64,000 nt of DNA from Actinomycetota bacterium (GTDB lineage: Bacteria > Actinomycetota > Thermoleophilia > Solirubrobacterales > 70-9). Under the pieces are notes generated by a model. That model saw only the letters and a program-made list of their open reading frames with translations, was not told where the DNA came from and did not search any database. How positions within the stretch are numbered: position 1 is the stretch's first letter; every line of letters starts with the position of its first letter. Position numbers and translations under genes: made by a program. The DNA lies in contig JAFDWB010000092.1 in assembly GCA_018268675.1 (NCBI GenBank), positions 124,001 through 188,000 on the forward strand, written 5' to 3'. This document shows, piece after piece, positions 29,335-38,099 of the stretch.

Positions 29335-30375
29335 GTGGCGCGCAGCCGCCCGGTGACGATCGCCCTCGACGGGTTCGGGGCGGAGCAGGGTTTCGACGTA
29401 CTCGCCGAGGGCGCCCGCCGCGCCGCCGCCGACGGGATCGGGGTGCGCGTGTTCGGGCCGGAGCGCTCGCTGCGGCTGGCGGGGGTGTCGGGGATCGAGG
29501 TGATCCCGACCACCGAGTGGATCGGCAACGACGACGACCCGGTGCAGTCGGTGCGCGAGCGCCGCGAGGCCTCGGTCGTGCGCGCCGCCCGCGACGTCGC
29601 CGAGGGGAACGCGGCGGCGATGGTCAGCCTCGGCTCGACCGGGGCGACGATGGCAGCCGCCACCTTCGGCCTGCGCCGCCTCAAGGGGGTGCAGCGGCCG
29701 GCGCTGGCGGTGCGCCTGCCCTCGCCGGTCAAACCGGTCCTCTTCCTCGACGTCGGCGCCAACATCGAGGTCCGCGCCCAGCACCTGGTCCAGTTCGCCT
29801 TCCTCGGCGCCGCCTTCAGCGCCGCGGTGCTGGAGGTCCGCGAACCGACAGTCGGCCTGCTGACGGTCGGCGAGGAGGCGGGGAAGGGGCGCCCCGAGAT
29901 CGTCGAGGCGCACCGGATCCTCGCCGAGGCGCCCGGGGTCGACTTCGCCGGCAACATCGAGGGCGGCGACCTGCCGGAAGCGAAGGTCGACGTCGTCGTC
30001 ACCGACGGCTTCACCGGCAACGTGGCGCTGAAGGTGATGGAGGGCGCGGCGCGGACGCTGGCCGGGGCGATCTCCGACCTCGCGCACAAGAACGTCCTCG
30101 CGGCGGCGGGCGGGCTGCTGCTGAAACCTGCGCTGGGCGGCCTGCGCAAGGAGTTCGACCCCGACACGACCGGCGGCGCGATCCTGCTCGGGCTGCGCGC
30201 GGTGACGATCGTCGGGCACGGCTCCTCGGGCGCCGACGGCGTCGCCAACGCGATCCGCCTCGCCGCCCGCTCGGTCGACGTCGACGCGGTCGGGCGTACC
30301 GCGGCCCTGCTGCGCGAGGGCCACGCCGGGCGCGCCGCGCTGGCGGGCGACGCGGTCGGCGACGAAGCTGCGTGA
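29335..30375 (+). CDS. plsX: Phosphate acyltransferase PlsX
   Basis: Makes acyl-phosphate from acyl-ACP, the first step of the PlsX/PlsY route to phosphatidic acid. 346 residues with the family's IALDGFGAEQG opening, VSLGSTGATMAAATF, FLDVGANIEVRAQHLVQFA and VTDGFTGNVALKVMEG. It is co-directional with rpmF and acpP; GTG start. With FakA in the same block, exogenous fatty acids could also feed acyl-phosphate, but that is inferred. Confidence 0.96.
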   Translation: MARSRPVTIALDGFGAEQGFDVLAEGARRAAADGIGVRVFGPERSLRLAGVSGIEVIPTTEWIGNDDDPVQSVRERREASVVRAARDVAEGNAAAMVSLGSTGATMAAATFGLRRLKGVQRPALAVRLPSPVKPVLFLDVGANIEVRAQHLVQFAFLGAAFSAAVLEVREPTVGLLTVGEEAGKGRPEIVEAHRILAEAPGVDFAGNIEGGDLPEAKVDVVVTDGFTGNVALKVMEGAARTLAGAISDLAHKNVLAAAGGLLLKPALGGLRKEFDPDTTGGAILLGLRAVTIVGHGSSGADGVANAIRLAARSVDVDAVGRTAALLREGHAGRAALAGDAVGDEAA

Positions 30376-30385: not shown

Positions 30386-30631
30386 ATGGAGCGCGACGAA
30401 GTCATCGAGCTGGTCCGCGGGCATCTCGCCGAGGAGCTCGAAGTCGACCCCGGCAGGATCGAGGAGGGGACCCGCTTCCGCGAGGACCTCGAAGCCGACT
30501 CGCTCGACCTCTACGAGCTGGTGATGGAGCTCGAAGACCGCTACGGGATCAAGGTCACCGAGGAGGAGGCGACCCGGATCGCGACCGTCGGCGACGCCGT
30601 CGCCTTCGTCCTCGAGCGGGCCCCCGCCTGA
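30386..30631 (+). CDS. acpP: Acyl carrier protein
   Basis: 81-residue acidic helical protein. Ser39 in EADSLDLYELVMELEDRYG is the phosphopantetheine attachment site (consensus DSLD). Carries acyl chains for fatty-acid synthesis and for PlsX. The next start is 1 nt after the stop, so acpP and rnc are coupled, as in most bacteria. Confidence 0.97.
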   Translation: MERDEVIELVRGHLAEELEVDPGRIEEGTRFREDLEADSLDLYELVMELEDRYGIKVTEEEATRIATVGDAVAFVLERAPA

Positions 30632-30632
30632 G

Positions 30633-31373
30633 ATGTCGGACGGGCCGGCGGCCGATTTCGCCCCCGGGGGCGAGGCCGACGACCCCGCCGGGCGCGGCGC
30701 CGTCGCCGCGCTCGCCGCGCTGATCGTGGACCTGCCGGAGGAGCTCCGCTCCCAGGCGCTCACGCACTCCTCCTGGACCGAGCGCCGGGTCGACTCGTTC
30801 GAGCGCCTCGCCTTCCTCGGCGACAGCGTGCTCGGGCTGTCGGTCGCCGGGGCGCTCTACGAGCGCTTCCCCGACATCGCCGCGGGCGGCCTCACGAAGA
30901 TCCACAACCAGGCGGTGTCCGGGGTCTCCTGCGCGGCCGTGGGGCGCCTGCTCGGCGTGCCGGGGATGCTGCGCGCCAACGAGCCCGAGGGCGTCACCGC
31001 GGCGATCCCGGCGGAGGTGCTGCTGGACGGAGAGCGACCGCTGCCGGAGGCGACCGAGGCGCTGATCGGCGCCTGCCACCTGGCCTTCGGCTTCGAGCGC
31101 GCGGCGGCGGCCGTGGCGGCCGCGTTCGCGCCGCGGATCGAGCTCGCCGCGGAGACGCGGATCGACTTCAAGAGCGCTTTGCAGGAGCTTTTGGCGCGCC
31201 GCGGGGCGCGCGTAAGCTATGAGGTGACGGCCGCCACGGGCCCTCCCCATCGGCGAACCTTCGAGGTCGTGGCGATCGTCGATTCCGAGCGGGTGGGGTC
31301 GGGCGAGGGGCGCAGCAAGAAGGCGGCGGAGCAGGTGGCGGCGGAGGAGGCATTACGGGCTTTGGGTGGTTGA
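30633..31373 (+). CDS. rnc: Ribonuclease III with altered catalytic acids
   Basis: 246 residues, N-terminal nuclease domain (~25-165) and C-terminal dsRNA-binding domain (~180-244; SALQELLARRG, GEGRSKKAAEQVAAEEAL). The signature helix reads ERLAFLGDSVLGL where the family has ERLEFLGD; the second acid (E41 in E. coli) is Ala. The second metal helix reads PEATEALIGA, so D114 appears replaced by Glu while E117 is kept. E38 and D45 remain. RNase III matures rRNA and cuts dsRNA; this version may be less active or use a modified metal site. Position between acpP and smc is canonical. Confidence 0.92.
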   Translation: MSDGPAADFAPGGEADDPAGRGAVAALAALIVDLPEELRSQALTHSSWTERRVDSFERLAFLGDSVLGLSVAGALYERFPDIAAGGLTKIHNQAVSGVSCAAVGRLLGVPGMLRANEPEGVTAAIPAEVLLDGERPLPEATEALIGACHLAFGFERAAAAVAAAFAPRIELAAETRIDFKSALQELLARRGARVSYEVTAATGPPHRRTFEVVAIVDSERVGSGEGRSKKAAEQVAAEEALRALGG

Positions 31374-31517: not shown

Positions 31518-33902
31518 ATGTATCTGCGATCGATCACGATGAAGGGGTTCAAGTCCTTTCCCGAGCGGGTGAGCCTCGAGTTCTCGCCTGGCGTCAGCGT
31601 CATCGTCGGGCCGAACGGGTCGGGGAAGAGCAACATCACCGACGCGGTGCTGTGGGCGCTCGGCGAGCAGAGCCCGGGGGCGATCCGCGGCGCCTCGATG
31701 CAGGACGTGATCTCGGCGGGGGGGAAGAACACCGGGGCGCGGCGCGAAGCCCAGGTCGAGGTCGTGATCGACAACTCCGACGGGCGGGCGAAGACGGAGT
31801 TCTCCGAGATCGCGGTGGAGCGGCGCCTCGACCGGGGCGGCGAGGGCGGCTACCGGCTGAACGGGGCGCGGGCGCGGCTCGCCGACGTGATCGAGGTGCT
31901 CTCCGACACCAACCTCGGGCGCGAGATGCACTCGGTCATCAGCCAGGGCCGGGTGGAGTCGATCATCCACTCCAAGCCGCGGGAGCGGCGGCTTTTGATC
32001 GAGGAGGCGGCGGGCCTCGGCAAGCACCGCAAACGGCGGCGGCGGGCGGAACTGAAGCTGCGCGGGACGCGCGACAACCTCGATCGGGCGCTCGACGTCG
32101 AGCGCGAGGCGCGGGCGCGGCTGCGGCCGCTGAAGCGCCAGGCGCAGGCGGCCGAGATCGGGGCGCGGATCGACCGCGAGGAAATGGAGCTGAAGGGGCG
32201 GATCGTCTCGGAGGAGCTGCGCTTCGGCGCCGACCGGGCGGCCGCGGCGGCGAAGGCGGCGGCCGCCGCCCGGGCGACGCGGACGAAGCTCGAGGGGCAG
32301 CTCGCCGAGGTGAGCAAACGGCGCTCCGCCGCCGAGGAGCGCTTCGCCGAGCGCGACCGGGCGCGGACCCAGGCCTGGGGCGTGCTGACCAAACTGCGGG
32401 CCGAGTCGGAGCGGGTCGCGGTGCGGGTCGCCGGGCTGGCGCGGAGCGAGGCGGAGGTCGAGGCGCGCCTCGAGGCGCTGCGGGCCGAGCTCGGGCCGCT
32501 GACCCTGGACGTCGGCGGCGGCGACGCGCCGACCCAGCGGGCGCGGAAGCTGGAAGAGGAGCTGGGCGAGGTCGACGCGGGGCTGAAGTCGGCGCTCGAC
32601 GGCCTGGCGACGGCGCGCTCCGAGGACGCCACCGAGACTGCCCGCGAGCGGGCACTCGGCGAGGTGCGAGCGGGGAGCGAACGGGCGATCCGCCACGCGC
32701 GGCGGGCCGAGGGGCTGCTCGGCGAGCGCCACCGGGAGAAGATGCGGGCGCGCCTGGCGGGCGGCGAGGAGCTGCTGGACGACGTGCGGGCGGCGTTGGC
32801 CGCGGTCGACCAGGTCGGCAACGCGATCCGCGCCCGGGTCGAGCGGACCGAGTCGACCGTGGTGGGCAACGAGGGCGACGGCGACGAGATCGCCGACGAG
32901 CTGCGCGCCTGCTCGAAGCTCGAGTTCGAGCTGCAAGGGCAGATGCGGTCGGTGAGCGAAGAGCTGACCCAGGCCGAGGTCGAGGCCGCCCACCTCGGCG
33001 ACCGGAGGGCCGAGGCCGAACGGGAGATGGCGGCGATCGTCGAGAAGCTCGGCGAGGAGGTGCCCGCGGCGGAGATCGCGATGACCGAGGAGGAGCGCGC
33101 CGAGATCGACCGCAAACTGGGGCGACTGGAGCGTCGGCGCGCCCAGATCGGCCCGGTCAATCCGCTCGCCGAGCGCGAATACGAGGAGGCGCGCGAGCAC
33201 GTCGAGCAGCTGCAGGCGCAGCGCGAGGACACCGAGCGGGCGATGCGCGAGCTGGAGTCGCTGATCCGCGAGATCGACGACGAGATCGAGCGGGCGTTCG
33301 AGGAGACCTTCGAGGCGACCGCGAAGAACTTCGAGGAGATGGTCGAACACCTTTTTCCCGGTGGCCGCGGCAGGCTGCGGCGGGTGAACCTGCGGGCGGT
33401 CCGCGAGGAGGAGCAGGCGCCGGCGCAGGCGGAGGGGGAGGAGGCCGCCGAGAGCGCCGAGCCGGACCCCGACGAGGAGGAGCGCGACGAACGGGACGAG
33501 TTCGGGGTCGAGATCGAGGTCAACCCGGCGGGCAAGTCGACCCGCAAACTCAGCTTGATGTCGGGCGGCGAGAAGTCCCTCGTCGCGCTCGCCTTCGTCT
33601 TCGCCGTCTTCCTCGCCCGGCCCTGCCCCTTCTACATCCTCGACGAGGTCGAGGCCGCTCTCGATGACGCCAACATCGACCGCTTCCTTCAGTTGATCCG
33701 CCGCTTCTGCGACCGCGCCCAGTTCGTCATCGTCACCCACCAGAAACGCACCATGGACGCCGCCGACGTCCTCTACGGCGTGACGATGGGCGGCGACGGC
33801 GTCACCAAAGTCGTCAGCCGCAAGCTCCCCCGCGACGCCGCCGAGGACGAAGACGACCTCAGCGACGACGCCGGCCCCGGCCCCCTGAGCGCCGTCGCCT
33901 GA
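31518..33902 (+). CDS. smc: Chromosome segregation SMC protein, short and apparently hingeless
   Basis: ATPase that organises chromosomes with ScpAB. N-terminal head (1-~170): Walker A VGPNGSGKSNITDAVLWALGEQ and Q-loop region SVISQGRVESIIHSKP. C-terminal head (~600-794): signature LSLMSGGEKSLVALA, Walker B FYILDEVEAALDDAN, then VTHQKRTM. Between them is only ~430 residues of charged coiled coil; the ~150-residue Gly-rich hinge domain expected mid-protein is not seen, and the protein is ~794 rather than ~1,180 residues. An acidic insertion (~640-675) sits inside the C-terminal head. The frame is uninterrupted. ATG 31518 gives the normal MYLRSITMKGFKSF start. Confidence 0.9.
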   Translation: MYLRSITMKGFKSFPERVSLEFSPGVSVIVGPNGSGKSNITDAVLWALGEQSPGAIRGASMQDVISAGGKNTGARREAQVEVVIDNSDGRAKTEFSEIAVERRLDRGGEGGYRLNGARARLADVIEVLSDTNLGREMHSVISQGRVESIIHSKPRERRLLIEEAAGLGKHRKRRRRAELKLRGTRDNLDRALDVEREARARLRPLKRQAQAAEIGARIDREEMELKGRIVSEELRFGADRAAAAAKAAAAARATRTKLEGQLAEVSKRRSAAEERFAERDRARTQAWGVLTKLRAESERVAVRVAGLARSEAEVEARLEALRAELGPLTLDVGGGDAPTQRARKLEEELGEVDAGLKSALDGLATARSEDATETARERALGEVRAGSERAIRHARRAEGLLGERHREKMRARLAGGEELLDDVRAALAAVDQVGNAIRARVERTESTVVGNEGDGDEIADELRACSKLEFELQGQMRSVSEELTQAEVEAAHLGDRRAEAEREMAAIVEKLGEEVPAAEIAMTEEERAEIDRKLGRLERRRAQIGPVNPLAEREYEEAREHVEQLQAQREDTERAMRELESLIREIDDEIERAFEETFEATAKNFEEMVEHLFPGGRGRLRRVNLRAVREEEQAPAQAEGEEAAESAEPDPDEEERDERDEFGVEIEVNPAGKSTRKLSLMSGGEKSLVALAFVFAVFLARPCPFYILDEVEAALDDANIDRFLQLIRRFCDRAQFVIVTHQKRTMDAADVLYGVTMGGDGVTKVVSRKLPRDAAEDEDDLSDDAGPGPLSAVA

Positions 33903-34249: not shown

Positions 34250-35800
34250 ATGCCACAGCGCCACATGGACCGGCTGTCGTCGTTCGACACGTCGTTCCTC
34301 GCCAACGAGAAGGACAACGCGCACATGGCGATCGGGGCCTTGCTGGTCTTCGAGGGGCAGCCGCCGGCGCAGGACGAGTTTCTCGCGCAGATCAGGTCAC
34401 GACTGCACCAGCTCCCACGGCTGCGGCAGAAGCTCTTGAGGCCGCCGCTCGGGTTGGGGACGCCGTTCTGGGTCGATGACGAGACCTTCGACGTGCACCG
34501 CCACGTCGGCCGCGCGACGCTGCCGGCGCCCGGTGGAGATGCCGAGCTGCGGGCGCTCGCGGGGGAGCTGCTCGCGCCGCCGCTCGACCGCGGCAAGCCG
34601 CTCTGGGAGCTGACCTTGGTCGACGGGTTCGCGGAGGAGCGCTTCGCGGTCGTCTACAAGACCCACCACGCGATGGCCGACGGGATCTCCGCCGTCGACA
34701 TCGGGATGCTGCTGTTCGACGTCGCCCCCGAGGCCGCGCCGCCCGAGCCCGCGGAGCCGTGGCGCCCGCACCGCTCGCCCTCGAGCACCGGCCTCGTCGT
34801 CCACGCCGCGACCGGGGCCCTCGCCACCCTGCGGCGCCTCGCCCGCTGGCTGTCCCGCGCCGCCGCGGACCCCGGCAAGGCCGCGCGCCGCGCCGGCGAC
34901 GGGCTCACCGGCCTCTGGGAGGTCACCTGGAACCTGCTGCGCCCCGCGCCGCGTGTGCCGATCAACCCCCGCGGCGTCGGCCCGCGTCGTGAGTTCGCCT
35001 GGGCCACCTTCGATCTGGCGGAGTTCAAGCGGATCAAGAACGCCCTCGGCGGCACCGTCAACGACGTCTCGCTCGCCGTCGCCACCGGCGCCCTGCGCGC
35101 CTGGCTCGCGGAATGGGACCCCCCCGACGCTTGTCTTCGTATCGAGGACAAGCGTCGAGGAGCTCGGGGTGGGCTGGAGCTGAAGGCGCTCGTCCCGGTC
35201 TCGATCCGGACCGTGGACGAGCACGGGGAGTTGGGGAACAAACTGACCGCGATGCGGGGGCCGCTACCGGTCGGGATCGCCGACGCGGCTGGGCGCCTGG
35301 CCGTGATCTCGACCGCGATGGACGGCCTCAAGGCCTCCAAGCAGCCGCTCGGCGCGGAAGCGATCTGGGCCCTCAACGACTGGTTCCGCGACTTCGCTCC
35401 ACCCGTCCTCCTCGCCCCGACCGCGGCGATCAACTTCTCGACCCGCCTCTTCAACCTGCTGGTGACGAACTTCCCCGGGCCGCAGATTCCCTTCTACCTG
35501 CGCGGCCGCGAGCTCCTCGCGATCCACCCGGTCGGCTTCCTCGCCCGCCGCCACGGCCTTGCGATCGCGATCCTCTCCTACAACGGCAAGGTCAGCTTCG
35601 GCCTCCTCGCCGACCCCGATTCGGCTCCCGGAGCGGCGCGGCTCGCCGCCCACCTCGACGCCGCGGTGGCCGAGCTCGGCGCCGCCGCCACGCGAGCCGC
35701 CCCGCCGCTAGCCTCCCCGGGCGATGGCGACCAGCTGGCAGGAGATGATCGACCTCGGTTCGCGCGAGCCCGCGAACGCCGCGCCGCCCGCGGAGGCTGA
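34250..35800 (+). CDS. WS/DGAT acyltransferase (wax ester synthase / diacylglycerol acyltransferase)
   Basis: Esterifies acyl-CoA to diacylglycerol or fatty alcohol for storage lipid. The catalytic HHxxxDG is present as KTHHAMADGISA (~res 142), and the opening MDRLSSFDTSFLANEKDNAHM and C-terminal NFPGPQIPFYLRG are family hallmarks. Length 516 is a little long. Residues ~292-303 (ACLRIEDKRRG) are encoded by a palindrome also found between recG and rsmD, so this loop looks like an in-frame insertion just before LELKALVPVSIR. The last 77 bp overlap ftsY. A strong Shine-Dalgarno (AGGAGGT) precedes the ATG. Confidence 0.92.
   Translation: MPQRHMDRLSSFDTSFLANEKDNAHMAIGALLVFEGQPPAQDEFLAQIRSRLHQLPRLRQKLLRPPLGLGTPFWVDDETFDVHRHVGRATLPAPGGDAELRALAGELLAPPLDRGKPLWELTLVDGFAEERFAVVYKTHHAMADGISAVDIGMLLFDVAPEAAPPEPAEPWRPHRSPSSTGLVVHAATGALATLRRLARWLSRAAADPGKAARRAGDGLTGLWEVTWNLLRPAPRVPINPRGVGPRREFAWATFDLAEFKRIKNALGGTVNDVSLAVATGALRAWLAEWDPPDACLRIEDKRRGARGGLELKALVPVSIRTVDEHGELGNKLTAMRGPLPVGIADAAGRLAVISTAMDGLKASKQPLGAEAIWALNDWFRDFAPPVLLAPTAAINFSTRLFNLLVTNFPGPQIPFYLRGRELLAIHPVGFLARRHGLAIAILSYNGKVSFGLLADPDSAPGAARLAAHLDAAVAELGAAATRAAPPLASPGDGDQLAGDDRPRFARARERRAARGG
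35125..35157. repeat. GACGCTTGTC palindrome, copy 2, inside the WS/DGAT gene
   Basis: CGACGCTTGTC (35125-35135) pairs with GACAAGCGTCG (35147-35157); loop TTCGTATCGAG. Over arms and loop it is the reverse complement of copy 1 at 25906-25940. The 33 bp are in frame and add no stop codon. Confidence 0.92.
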
Positions 35801-36725
35801 GCCGGAGCGCCGTCGCGGTGTCTTCCGCCGCCTGCGCGAGAGCCTCTCGAAATCCCGCCAGGCGCTGCAGGAGGAGATCAGCGCCTCGGTCTTCGAGAAG
35901 ATTGACGACGAAACCTGGGAACTCCTCGAGGAGGCGCTGATCCTCGCCGACGTCGGCGCACCGACCACCGCCGCGGTGGTCGAACGGCTCGAGCACGAGG
36001 TCGACTCCGGCGCCGTCCCCGCCGACGGCGAGGCGATCCGCGCCCGCCTGATCGAGATCCTCGCCGAGGTCGCCTCGACCGCCCGCGCCAAGATCGACCT
36101 CTCCGCCCAACCCGCGGTGCTGATGATGGTCGGCGTCAACGGCACCGGCAAGACGACGACGATCGGCAAGATCGCCTGGCACCTCTCGAAGGAATTCGGC
36201 CTTTCGGTGGTGATGGGCGCCGGCGACACCTACCGCGCCGCCGCCGCCGAGCAGCTCGCCGAGTGGGCCGACCGGGCGGGCGCCGAGGTGGTCCGCGGCC
36301 AGGCGGGCGCCGACCCCGGCTCGGTCGCCTACGACGCCGTTTCCGCCGCCGTGGCTCGCGGCGCCGACGTGGTGATCGTCGACACCGCCGGCCGCCTCCA
36401 CACCCAGGACAACCTGATGGAGGAGCTCGCCAAGGTCCGCCGCGTGATCGGCAAGCTGATCCCGGACGCGCCGCACGAGACCCTGATCTCGATCGACGCG
36501 ACCACCGGCCAGAACGGCCTCCGCCAGGCGAAGGTCTTCTCGGCGGCGGCCGAGGTCGACGGCGTGGTCCTGACCAAGCTCGACGGCACCGCCAAGGGCG
36601 GGATCGCGCTGGCGATCGCGTCCGAACTCGGCATCCCGGTGAAGCTGATCGGCGTGGGGGAGAAGCTCGAGGACCTGCGCCCGTTCGACCCCGCCGAGTA
36701 CGCCGCCGCGCTCCTGGCCGAGTAG
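35724..36725 (+). CDS. ftsY: Signal recognition particle receptor FtsY
   Basis: Membrane-associated GTPase that docks SRP. 333 residues: short N-terminal acidic/basic A region, helical N domain (~30-110) and GTPase G domain with GVNGTGKTTTIGKIA, DTYRAAAAEQL, IVDTAGRLHTQ, TKLDGTAKGG and the closing GVGEKLEDLRPF. The start overlaps the WS/DGAT gene by 77 bp. TAGCCT 9 nt before ATG is a possible -10. ffh follows after 9 bp; together with lepB this block serves protein export. Confidence 0.96.
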   Translation: MATSWQEMIDLGSREPANAAPPAEAEPERRRGVFRRLRESLSKSRQALQEEISASVFEKIDDETWELLEEALILADVGAPTTAAVVERLEHEVDSGAVPADGEAIRARLIEILAEVASTARAKIDLSAQPAVLMMVGVNGTGKTTTIGKIAWHLSKEFGLSVVMGAGDTYRAAAAEQLAEWADRAGAEVVRGQAGADPGSVAYDAVSAAVARGADVVIVDTAGRLHTQDNLMEELAKVRRVIGKLIPDAPHETLISIDATTGQNGLRQAKVFSAAAEVDGVVLTKLDGTAKGGIALAIASELGIPVKLIGVGEKLEDLRPFDPAEYAAALLAE

Positions 36726-36734: not shown

Positions 36735-38099
36735 ATGTTCGACCAGCTGTCCGACCGCCTCCAGTCGACGCTCTCCGATGTCCGCTCGCGCGGCAAGCTG
36801 AGCGAGTCCGACATCGACTCGGCGATGCGCGACATCCGGCTCGCGCTGCTGGAGGCCGACGTCAACTTCAAAGTCGTCAAAGCGTTCACGAAGACGCTGA
36901 AAGAGCGCTGCCTTGGCGCCGAGGTGATGGACAGCCTCGACCCCGGCCAGCAGGTGGTGAAAATCGTCAACGAGGAGCTCGCCGATCTGATGGGCGGCAC
37001 CGGCGCCGACCTGACGATGGCGGCGAGCGGGCCGACCGTGATCCTGATGGCGGGCCTGCAGGGCTCCGGCAAGACGACCGCCTGCGCGAAGCTCGCGCAG
37101 TACTTCAAGGGGCAGCGCAAAGACGTGGCGCTCGCCGCCTGCGACGTCTACCGGCCCGCCGCGGTCGACCAGCTGGTGACGATGGGGCACCCGGCCGGCG
37201 CCCACGTCTACGAGAAAGGCATCGACGCCGACCCGGTCGACATCGCGGTCTGGGCGCTCGAGCGCGCCCGCGAGGAGCGCCGCGACGTCCTCATCGTCGA
37301 CACCGCGGGGCGCCTCCACATCGACGGGGACCTGATGAAGGAGCTGTCGCGGATCCGTGACAAGACGAAGCCCGATGACGTGTTGCTGGTGGTCGACGCG
37401 ATGACCGGCCAGGACGCGGTCGGGGTCGCCGAATCCTTCGCCGAGGCGGCCGAGTTCGACGGCGTCGTGATGACCAAGCTCGACGGCGACGCCCGCGGCG
37501 GTGCCGCGCTCTCGGTCAAGGCGGTGACCGGCAAGCCGATCATGTTCGCCTCGACCGGCGAGAAGATCGAGGACTTCGACAAGTTCCACCCCGATCGCAT
37601 GGCGCAGCGGATCCTCGGCATGGGCGACGTGCTGACGCTGATCGAGAAAGCCGAAAGCCAGGTCGACGAGAAGTCCGCCGAAGAGCTCGAGGAAAAACTC
37701 AAAAAGGACCAGTTCACGCTCGAGGACTTCCTCACGCAGATGAAACAGGTCCGCAAAATGGGCCCGCTCAGCGGGATCCTCGGGATGCTCCCCGGCATGG
37801 GCGCGATGAAACAGCTGAAGAACGCCAACATCGACGAGCGCCAGCTCGACAAGACCGAGGCGATCATCCTCTCGATGACCCCGGCCGAGCGCGCCGACCC
37901 GCACCTGATCAAAGGCCGGCGGCGCAAACGAATCGCCGACGGCTCGGGCACGAAAGTTCAGGAGGTGCGGGCGCTGGTCAAACAGTTCGACCAGATGCGG
38001 GTGATGATGCGCTCGATGGTCAACGGCAAGATGCCGGACCCGCAGAAGCTGATGCAGATGAGCGGCCAGGCACCGCGGCCGAAGGTGCGGAGGCGCTGA
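36735..38099 (+). CDS. ffh: Signal recognition particle protein Ffh
   Basis: GTPase that binds signal sequences and 4.5S/SRP RNA. 454 residues: N domain, G domain (GLQGSGKTTACAKLA, DVYRPAAVDQL, VDTAGRLHID, TKLDGDARGG, GEKIEDFDKF) and Met-rich M domain (MGPLSGILGMLPGMGAMKQL, then the RNA-binding GSGTKVQEVRALVKQFDQM). The C-terminus is short and basic. No SRP RNA gene was identified in the window. Confidence 0.97.
   Translation: MFDQLSDRLQSTLSDVRSRGKLSESDIDSAMRDIRLALLEADVNFKVVKAFTKTLKERCLGAEVMDSLDPGQQVVKIVNEELADLMGGTGADLTMAASGPTVILMAGLQGSGKTTACAKLAQYFKGQRKDVALAACDVYRPAAVDQLVTMGHPAGAHVYEKGIDADPVDIAVWALERAREERRDVLIVDTAGRLHIDGDLMKELSRIRDKTKPDDVLLVVDAMTGQDAVGVAESFAEAAEFDGVVMTKLDGDARGGAALSVKAVTGKPIMFASTGEKIEDFDKFHPDRMAQRILGMGDVLTLIEKAESQVDEKSAEELEEKLKKDQFTLEDFLTQMKQVRKMGPLSGILGMLPGMGAMKQLKNANIDERQLDKTEAIILSMTPAERADPHLIKGRRRKRIADGSGTKVQEVRALVKQFDQMRVMMRSMVNGKMPDPQKLMQMSGQAPRPKVRRR

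Follow-up and report, generated by a model that had tools for sequence, protein, structure and literature searches.

The question raised by this locus is whether a chromosomal structural maintenance of chromosomes (SMC) protein can do without its hinge. The locus lies in a stretch of 64,000 nucleotides, here called the window, from a soil-type Actinomycetota bacterium (class Thermoleophilia, order Solirubrobacterales, GTDB family 70-9; assembly GCA_018268675.1, contig JAFDWB010000092.1, positions 124,001 to 188,000). All coordinates below are window positions on the plus strand. The smc gene (31518..33902) starts with ATG and forms one uninterrupted open reading frame of 794 codons with no internal stop. 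According to Pfam, NCBIfam and a hinge hidden Markov model (HMM) tuned to these proteins, it encodes an intact SMC with both ATPase heads complete and no hinge, as a first-pass annotation of the sequence had proposed.

The N-terminal ATPase head (residues 1–165; 31518..32012) was recognised by Pfam SMC_N/AAA, the AlphaFold2 (AF2) model and PDB matches to SMC heads, and it carries the Walker A motif GPNGSGKSN (residues 31–39; 31608..31634). The C-terminal head (residues 601–771; 33318..33830), placed by Pfam, alignment and AF2, carries the ABC signature LMSGGEKS (residues 680–687; 33555..33578) and the Walker B and D-loop segment PFYILDEVEAALDD (residues 704–717; 33627..33668), with the Walker B motif FYILDEVEAALDD. 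The key residues of Walker A, signature and Walker B were invariant in the alignment of 29 family members. An acidic insert at about residues 628–658 of the C-terminal head is common to the order. Pfam returned a single SMC_N match over residues 2–763, and the NCBIfam model SMC_prok_B (TIGR02168) scored 611 bits, above its curated threshold of 567.35. The N-terminal head ends at about residue 165 and the C-terminal head starts at about residue 600, a separation of about 435 residues, close to the 430 first estimated. Between them lie an N-terminal coiled-coil arm (residues 166–329; 32013..32504), supported by AF2 and by indel-free co-linearity with the hinge-bearing relative L129, a new all-helical tip (residues 330–410; 32505..32747), delimited by AF2 and the alignment with a hinge-bearing relative, and a C-terminal arm (residues 411–600; 32748..33317), which rests on alignment and AF2 and contains the GPVNPLA motif. 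The arms are about 200 residues (about 30 nm) long.

No SMC_hinge domain (PF06470) was found by Pfam in the window SMC at E ≤ 1, and PF06470 had no match across the whole 4.2-Mb assembly (97% complete). The same domain was detected in 10 of 14 control genomes and matched in close relatives at E about 1e-10, so a hinge of a known kind acting in trans would have shown up. This ruled out a hinge encoded elsewhere in the genome, as far as PF06470 homologues are concerned. The tuned HMM was made from the hinge excised from an alignment of 24 hinge-bearing actinobacterial SMCs and was run with hmmsearch --max at E ≤ 100. It gave zero domains in the window SMC and in every short SMC of its family, and 16–117 bits in hinge-bearing SMCs. 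The 24 training proteins necessarily match it, and so do dozens of hinge-bearing SMCs that were not used for training. Pfam, the tuned HMM and the AF2 model together ruled out a diverged hinge. A zinc hook was ruled out as well: the only cysteines are at residues 465, 703 and 731, and no CXXC was found at the coil apex. Having no PF06470 domain, the window SMC is a hinge-less SMC variant (orthologue) and not a canonical SMC. Its 794 residues had been set against an expected length of about 1,180. The length stands and the comparator does not, because the order is already short-armed and the nearest hinge-bearing relatives have about 1,075 residues.

The AF2 monomer model, calculated from 29 family sequences, had a mean predicted local distance difference test (pLDDT) score of 77.5 and a predicted template modelling (pTM) score of 0.49. 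It showed two head halves joined by helices at residues 167–329, 338–367, 373–449, 454–511, 524–544 and 551–612, with no strands between the heads, which is a plain coiled-coil hairpin. Its PDB matches were SMC heads with coiled coils, such as the P. yayanosii Smc head with coil and joint (E 8e-25). The turn at the tip (about residues 368–372) falls within a variable, gapped stretch of the alignment. Just below the tip, the family alignment showed the motif RRxExLLGxR (residues 395–404; 32700..32729), invariant across 12 divergent hinge-less members against a mean identity of 63% at their arm positions. E398, L400, L401 and G402 are not conserved in 18 hinge-bearing relatives. By these alignments, the motif is specific to the hinge-less clade, and the patch is likely the new distal contact.

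The short form is not limited to one genome. A tblastn search of 50 family genomes found an SMC in 47. The tally of hinges by genus covers g1–g11 and leaves g12 aside. Eight genera (g1–g7 and g11) have short hinge-less SMCs, of about 775–820 aa in the complete copies, and genera g8, g9 and g10 have SMCs of about 1,075–1,090 aa with a full hinge scoring about 100 bits. Short orthologues in eight genera indicate an old loss at the level of the family and not a local deletion. Among the named members are two metagenome-assembled genomes (MAGs), Solirubrobacterales bacterium 70-9 and 67-14, as well as SZAS-9, SZAS-14 and SZAS-15, which are the closest at 92–93% identity. Alignment with L129 showed no indel in residues 1–350 and a net difference of few residues from residue 410 onwards. 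About 285 residues net, which are the hinge and hinge-proximal coils of L129, are missing at about residues 350–410. The hinge-less form is common to most of the family, and the three hinge-bearing genera are sister to it or nested within it.

The window SMC is the single SMC found in its genome; no second full-length SMC was found. Its gene belongs to a plsX-acpP-rnc-smc block and is flanked by rnc and ftsY-ffh, with one acyltransferase gene separating smc from ftsY. The block comprises plsX (29335..30375; TIGR00182), acpP for the acyl carrier protein (30386..30631) and rnc for RNase III (30633..31373; TIGR02191 at 151.7 bits, just below the cut-off of 166), and downstream lie ftsY (35724..36725; TIGR00064) and ffh (36735..38099; TIGR00959). 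The spacer gene (window 34250–35800) codes for a wax ester/triacylglycerol synthase of the WS/DGAT kind, and about 77 bp of it run past the annotated start of ftsY. Both scpA and scpB, whose presence the first-pass annotation had left to be checked, are in the genome; they lie side by side and away from smc, as in the hinge-bearing genera. The genes parA and parB adjoin rsmG and yidC near dnaA-dnaN-recF-gyrB, where the identities of dnaA, dnaN, recF, gyrB, yidC and rsmG come from inspecting the translations by eye. A search with the 14-bp parS core and 1 mismatch allowed found two parS-like sites (GTTCCACGTGAAAC), 39 bp apart, beside dnaA-dnaN. The search with the exact 16-bp site and at most 2 mismatches found no site, and hinge-bearing and hinge-less genomes could not be told apart by their parS counts. 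The ratio of nonsynonymous to synonymous substitution (dN/dS) was low both overall (0.14–0.26) and at the tip (0.16–0.33), and therefore purifying selection maintains the hinge-less form. Copy number, locus and tree agree on orthology, and the window SMC is the sole, genuine chromosomal SMC (condensin) of its lineage.

PF06470 was present in 206 of 299 genomes drawn from the class Thermoleophilia. Among those without it, several genera of family f7, which belongs to a different order, had SMC open frames of 702–735 aa. No hinge was detectable by HMM in the short f7 SMCs of about 702–726 aa, which keep 'GGEMWFAA'-like sequence remnants. Their AF2 model, of low confidence (pLDDT 66 overall), drew a small beta-alpha-beta-beta unit at residues 344–380, which form the tip. 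This short form, with its mini-hinge, is not quite hinge-less. In three other f7 SMCs of 838–883 aa (L148, L154 and L155) the hinge match was confined to its first part (HMM positions 2–78 of 115 at most); these proteins are half-hinge intermediates between a full hinge and none. In genus g29 of family f2, three SMCs of about 935 aa (L138, L139 and L140) have lost the hinge and kept the arms, and their congeners have a full hinge. Near the former hinge site, L138 and L140 carry a helix with tryptophans, WxxxWxxVR. A Thermoleophilaceae MAG has an SMC of about 790 aa (L065) that is also counted as hinge-less.

A maximum-likelihood tree was made from SMC heads (62 rows, 477 columns), with hinge and arms excluded. 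The hinge-less state needed six changes on this tree, and its starred branches force at least four. By the head sequences, independent losses or reductions of the hinge across Thermoleophilia thus number at least four. A single origin of all hinge-less SMCs was rejected by the approximately unbiased (AU) test, in which L065 was joined to the hinge-less set of the family (p = 3e-5). One clade of the family's own hinge-less SMCs was not rejected (AU p 0.22). In the free tree the three hinge-bearing genera branch within that set, at modest support (91/75), and a second hinge loss within the family is possible. In a phylum-wide sample of genomes at least 95% complete, the hinge was found in 263 of 298; its absence is uncommon in the phylum and not unique.

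In other classes, families f13 and f16 include near-complete genomes without any PF06470 match, and they may represent further hinge losses. Six SMCs of other Actinomycetota (L086–L090 and L101) were first taken as hinge-less; the tuned HMM found a full hinge on shorter arms. These proteins have 970–985 aa, and their arms are about 90–100 residues per side below the usual length. In genus g67 of family f8, genomes G046 and G076 (loci L176 at G046:C5:86000-89000 and L150 on G046:C33) have a full-length SMC and a second, very short SMC-like protein of about 630 aa. The latter has about 400 residues from Walker A to signature and no hinge, scored 302 bits with SMC_prok_B, which is below the cut-off, and is possibly a prokaryotic SMC paralogue.

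We propose, with a probability of roughly 0.6, that the hinge-less SMC works as Smc-ScpAB, a natural 'core-only' motor without a hinge gate whose distal end is closed by helical contacts. An old deletion would have taken out the hinge and roughly 60–90 flanking residues per arm; what is left is a hairpin of about 200 residues that carries both ATPase heads complete. ParB would load Smc-ScpAB at parS near oriC, the ScpA kleisin would bridge both heads, and head engagement by ATP would drive the motor. As foreseen from the missing hinge, dimerisation would have to happen in another way and the ring would be smaller. Closure would come from helices touching arm to arm or tip to tip, probably at RRxExLLGxR, in place of the hinge doughnut. 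Such a motor could translocate or extrude DNA, and the hinge gate for bypassing large obstacles would be gone. Partner binding, the mode of dimerisation, motor activity and the loss of bypass are the steps that we infer.

Findings on other SMC proteins make this plausible. In B. subtilis Smc the Rad50 zinc hook can replace the hinge, whose fold is not critical there (PMC5344682). In hinge-less Smc, arm-arm contacts are thought to help dimerisation, according to the part of PMC5526789 that cites Minnen 2016. A Wadjet core without the elbow-to-hinge part keeps plasmid cleavage, the read-out of loop extrusion, if its ring is cross-linked shut, and loses obstacle bypass (PMC12647877). Several points weigh against a core-only Smc-ScpAB. 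The same Wadjet core is inactive without the elbow cross-link (PMC12647877), so the proposed mechanism would fail with an open ring. The smallest arms that still functioned in a B. subtilis deletion screen measured 253–267 residues, more than the arms found here (PMC5344682). The AF2 model is of moderate quality and monomeric, so that dimerisation at the tip is no more than a proposal, and the RRxExLLGxR patch may only stabilise the hairpin.

Other explanations were considered. The dimer may have no distal closure and be held at the heads only, by ScpA bridging and ATP engagement, and act as a RecN-like clamp or tether rather than a ring-shaped loop extruder. The tip turn (about residues 369–379) is poorly conserved and gap-rich, AF2 predicts no dimerisation fold and there is no CXXC, all of which fit a dimer of this kind; we regard it as unlikely, however, since strong, clade-specific conservation marks the patch just under the turn, and ParABS and ScpAB are kept as in a normal condensin. 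Dimerisation of the tip in trans by an unrelated small protein is a good deal less probable. A partner not homologous to the hinge would have escaped the search that found no hinge homologue in trans, but the genes around smc are ordinary and offer no candidate.

Two further explanations have hardly any probability left. One is a pseudogene, a frameshift or an assembly error in a normal SMC, in favour of which stand the contig breaks or frameshifts in the smc genes of a few relatives (G222, G182 and G200). This explanation is refuted because the same short form recurs in dozens of genomes that were obtained in independent studies; the multi-genus distribution, the intact motifs and the low dN/dS likewise exclude a local deletion or pseudogene, in line with the earlier judgement that the open frame and intact motifs speak against a sequencing error or pseudogene. 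The other is that the protein is a paralogue of another kind (SbcC/Rad50, RecN or MukB). Heads and coil without a hinge do resemble the Rad50/RecN plan, but the window SMC exceeds the SMC_prok_B cut-off and falls far below those for Rad50 (78 against 700 bits), RecN (TIGR00634, 42 against 408 bits) and the archaea-specific SMC-related protein (ASRP; NF045487, 77 against 300 bits). It is also without CXXC and single-copy at the smc locus, and the tree nests it among Solirubrobacterales SMCs.

A wider claim, which we hold tentatively and at somewhat less than even odds, is that Thermoleophilia hold natural core-only chromosomal condensins, which would have discarded or shrunk the hinge independently, closed the ring at a new helical tip and kept parS loading and translocation. 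If this is true, the hinge would be dispensable in nature for the essential task of a chromosomal SMC, its loss going here with shorter and not longer arms. The hinge is taken to define SMC proteins and to be nearly universal among them, and there is debate over its purpose (dimerisation, DNA entry or obstacle bypass). Close relatives with and without a hinge, found repeatedly and together with intermediates, are a ready natural experiment on that purpose.

Canonical Smc-ScpAB (B. subtilis; TIGR02168) shares with this system the heads, arms, GPVNPLA region, locus, ScpA, ScpB and ParB/parS; the window SMC differs in having no hinge and arms of about 200 instead of about 344 residues (PMC5344682). 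The engineered Wadjet core (PMC12647877) is likewise an SMC core with neither hinge nor distal arms, but it is artificial and requires the elbow cross-link, and JetABCD is a plasmid-defence SMC and not a chromosomal one. Rad50/SbcC and archaeal ASRP/coalescin (PMC9389158) also combine SMC superfamily heads and a coil without an SMC hinge, whereas they dimerise by a CXXC zinc hook, which the window SMC does not have, and HMM scores place it in another family. MukB, Wadjet II/III and Acetobacter Smc (PMC12647877) have lost the hinge channel; their hinge still dimerises and their arms are generally longer, whereas here the hinge is gone and the arms are shorter, which runs counter to the suggestion tying loss of the hinge channel to longer arms.

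Hinge-less SMCs as a kind are already known. A 2025 study described them in marine Actinomycetes that are uncultured, as oceanic metagenomic ORFs of unknown host lineage (Sussfeld et al. 2025, PMC12153180); we found no earlier report of one in Thermoleophilia in the open-access literature searched. The marine proteins likewise consist of heads and arms with neither hinge nor zinc hook and apparently are not paralogues accompanying a normal SMC, and they come without neighbourhood or host lineage. The present data supply sequenced, classifiable hosts for the idea that came from ocean metagenomes. As far as the literature searched shows, what is new is the set of classified host families, hinge-bearing genera in the same family, at least four independent changes, intermediates with a half-hinge or a mini-hinge, and intact ScpAB and ParABS.
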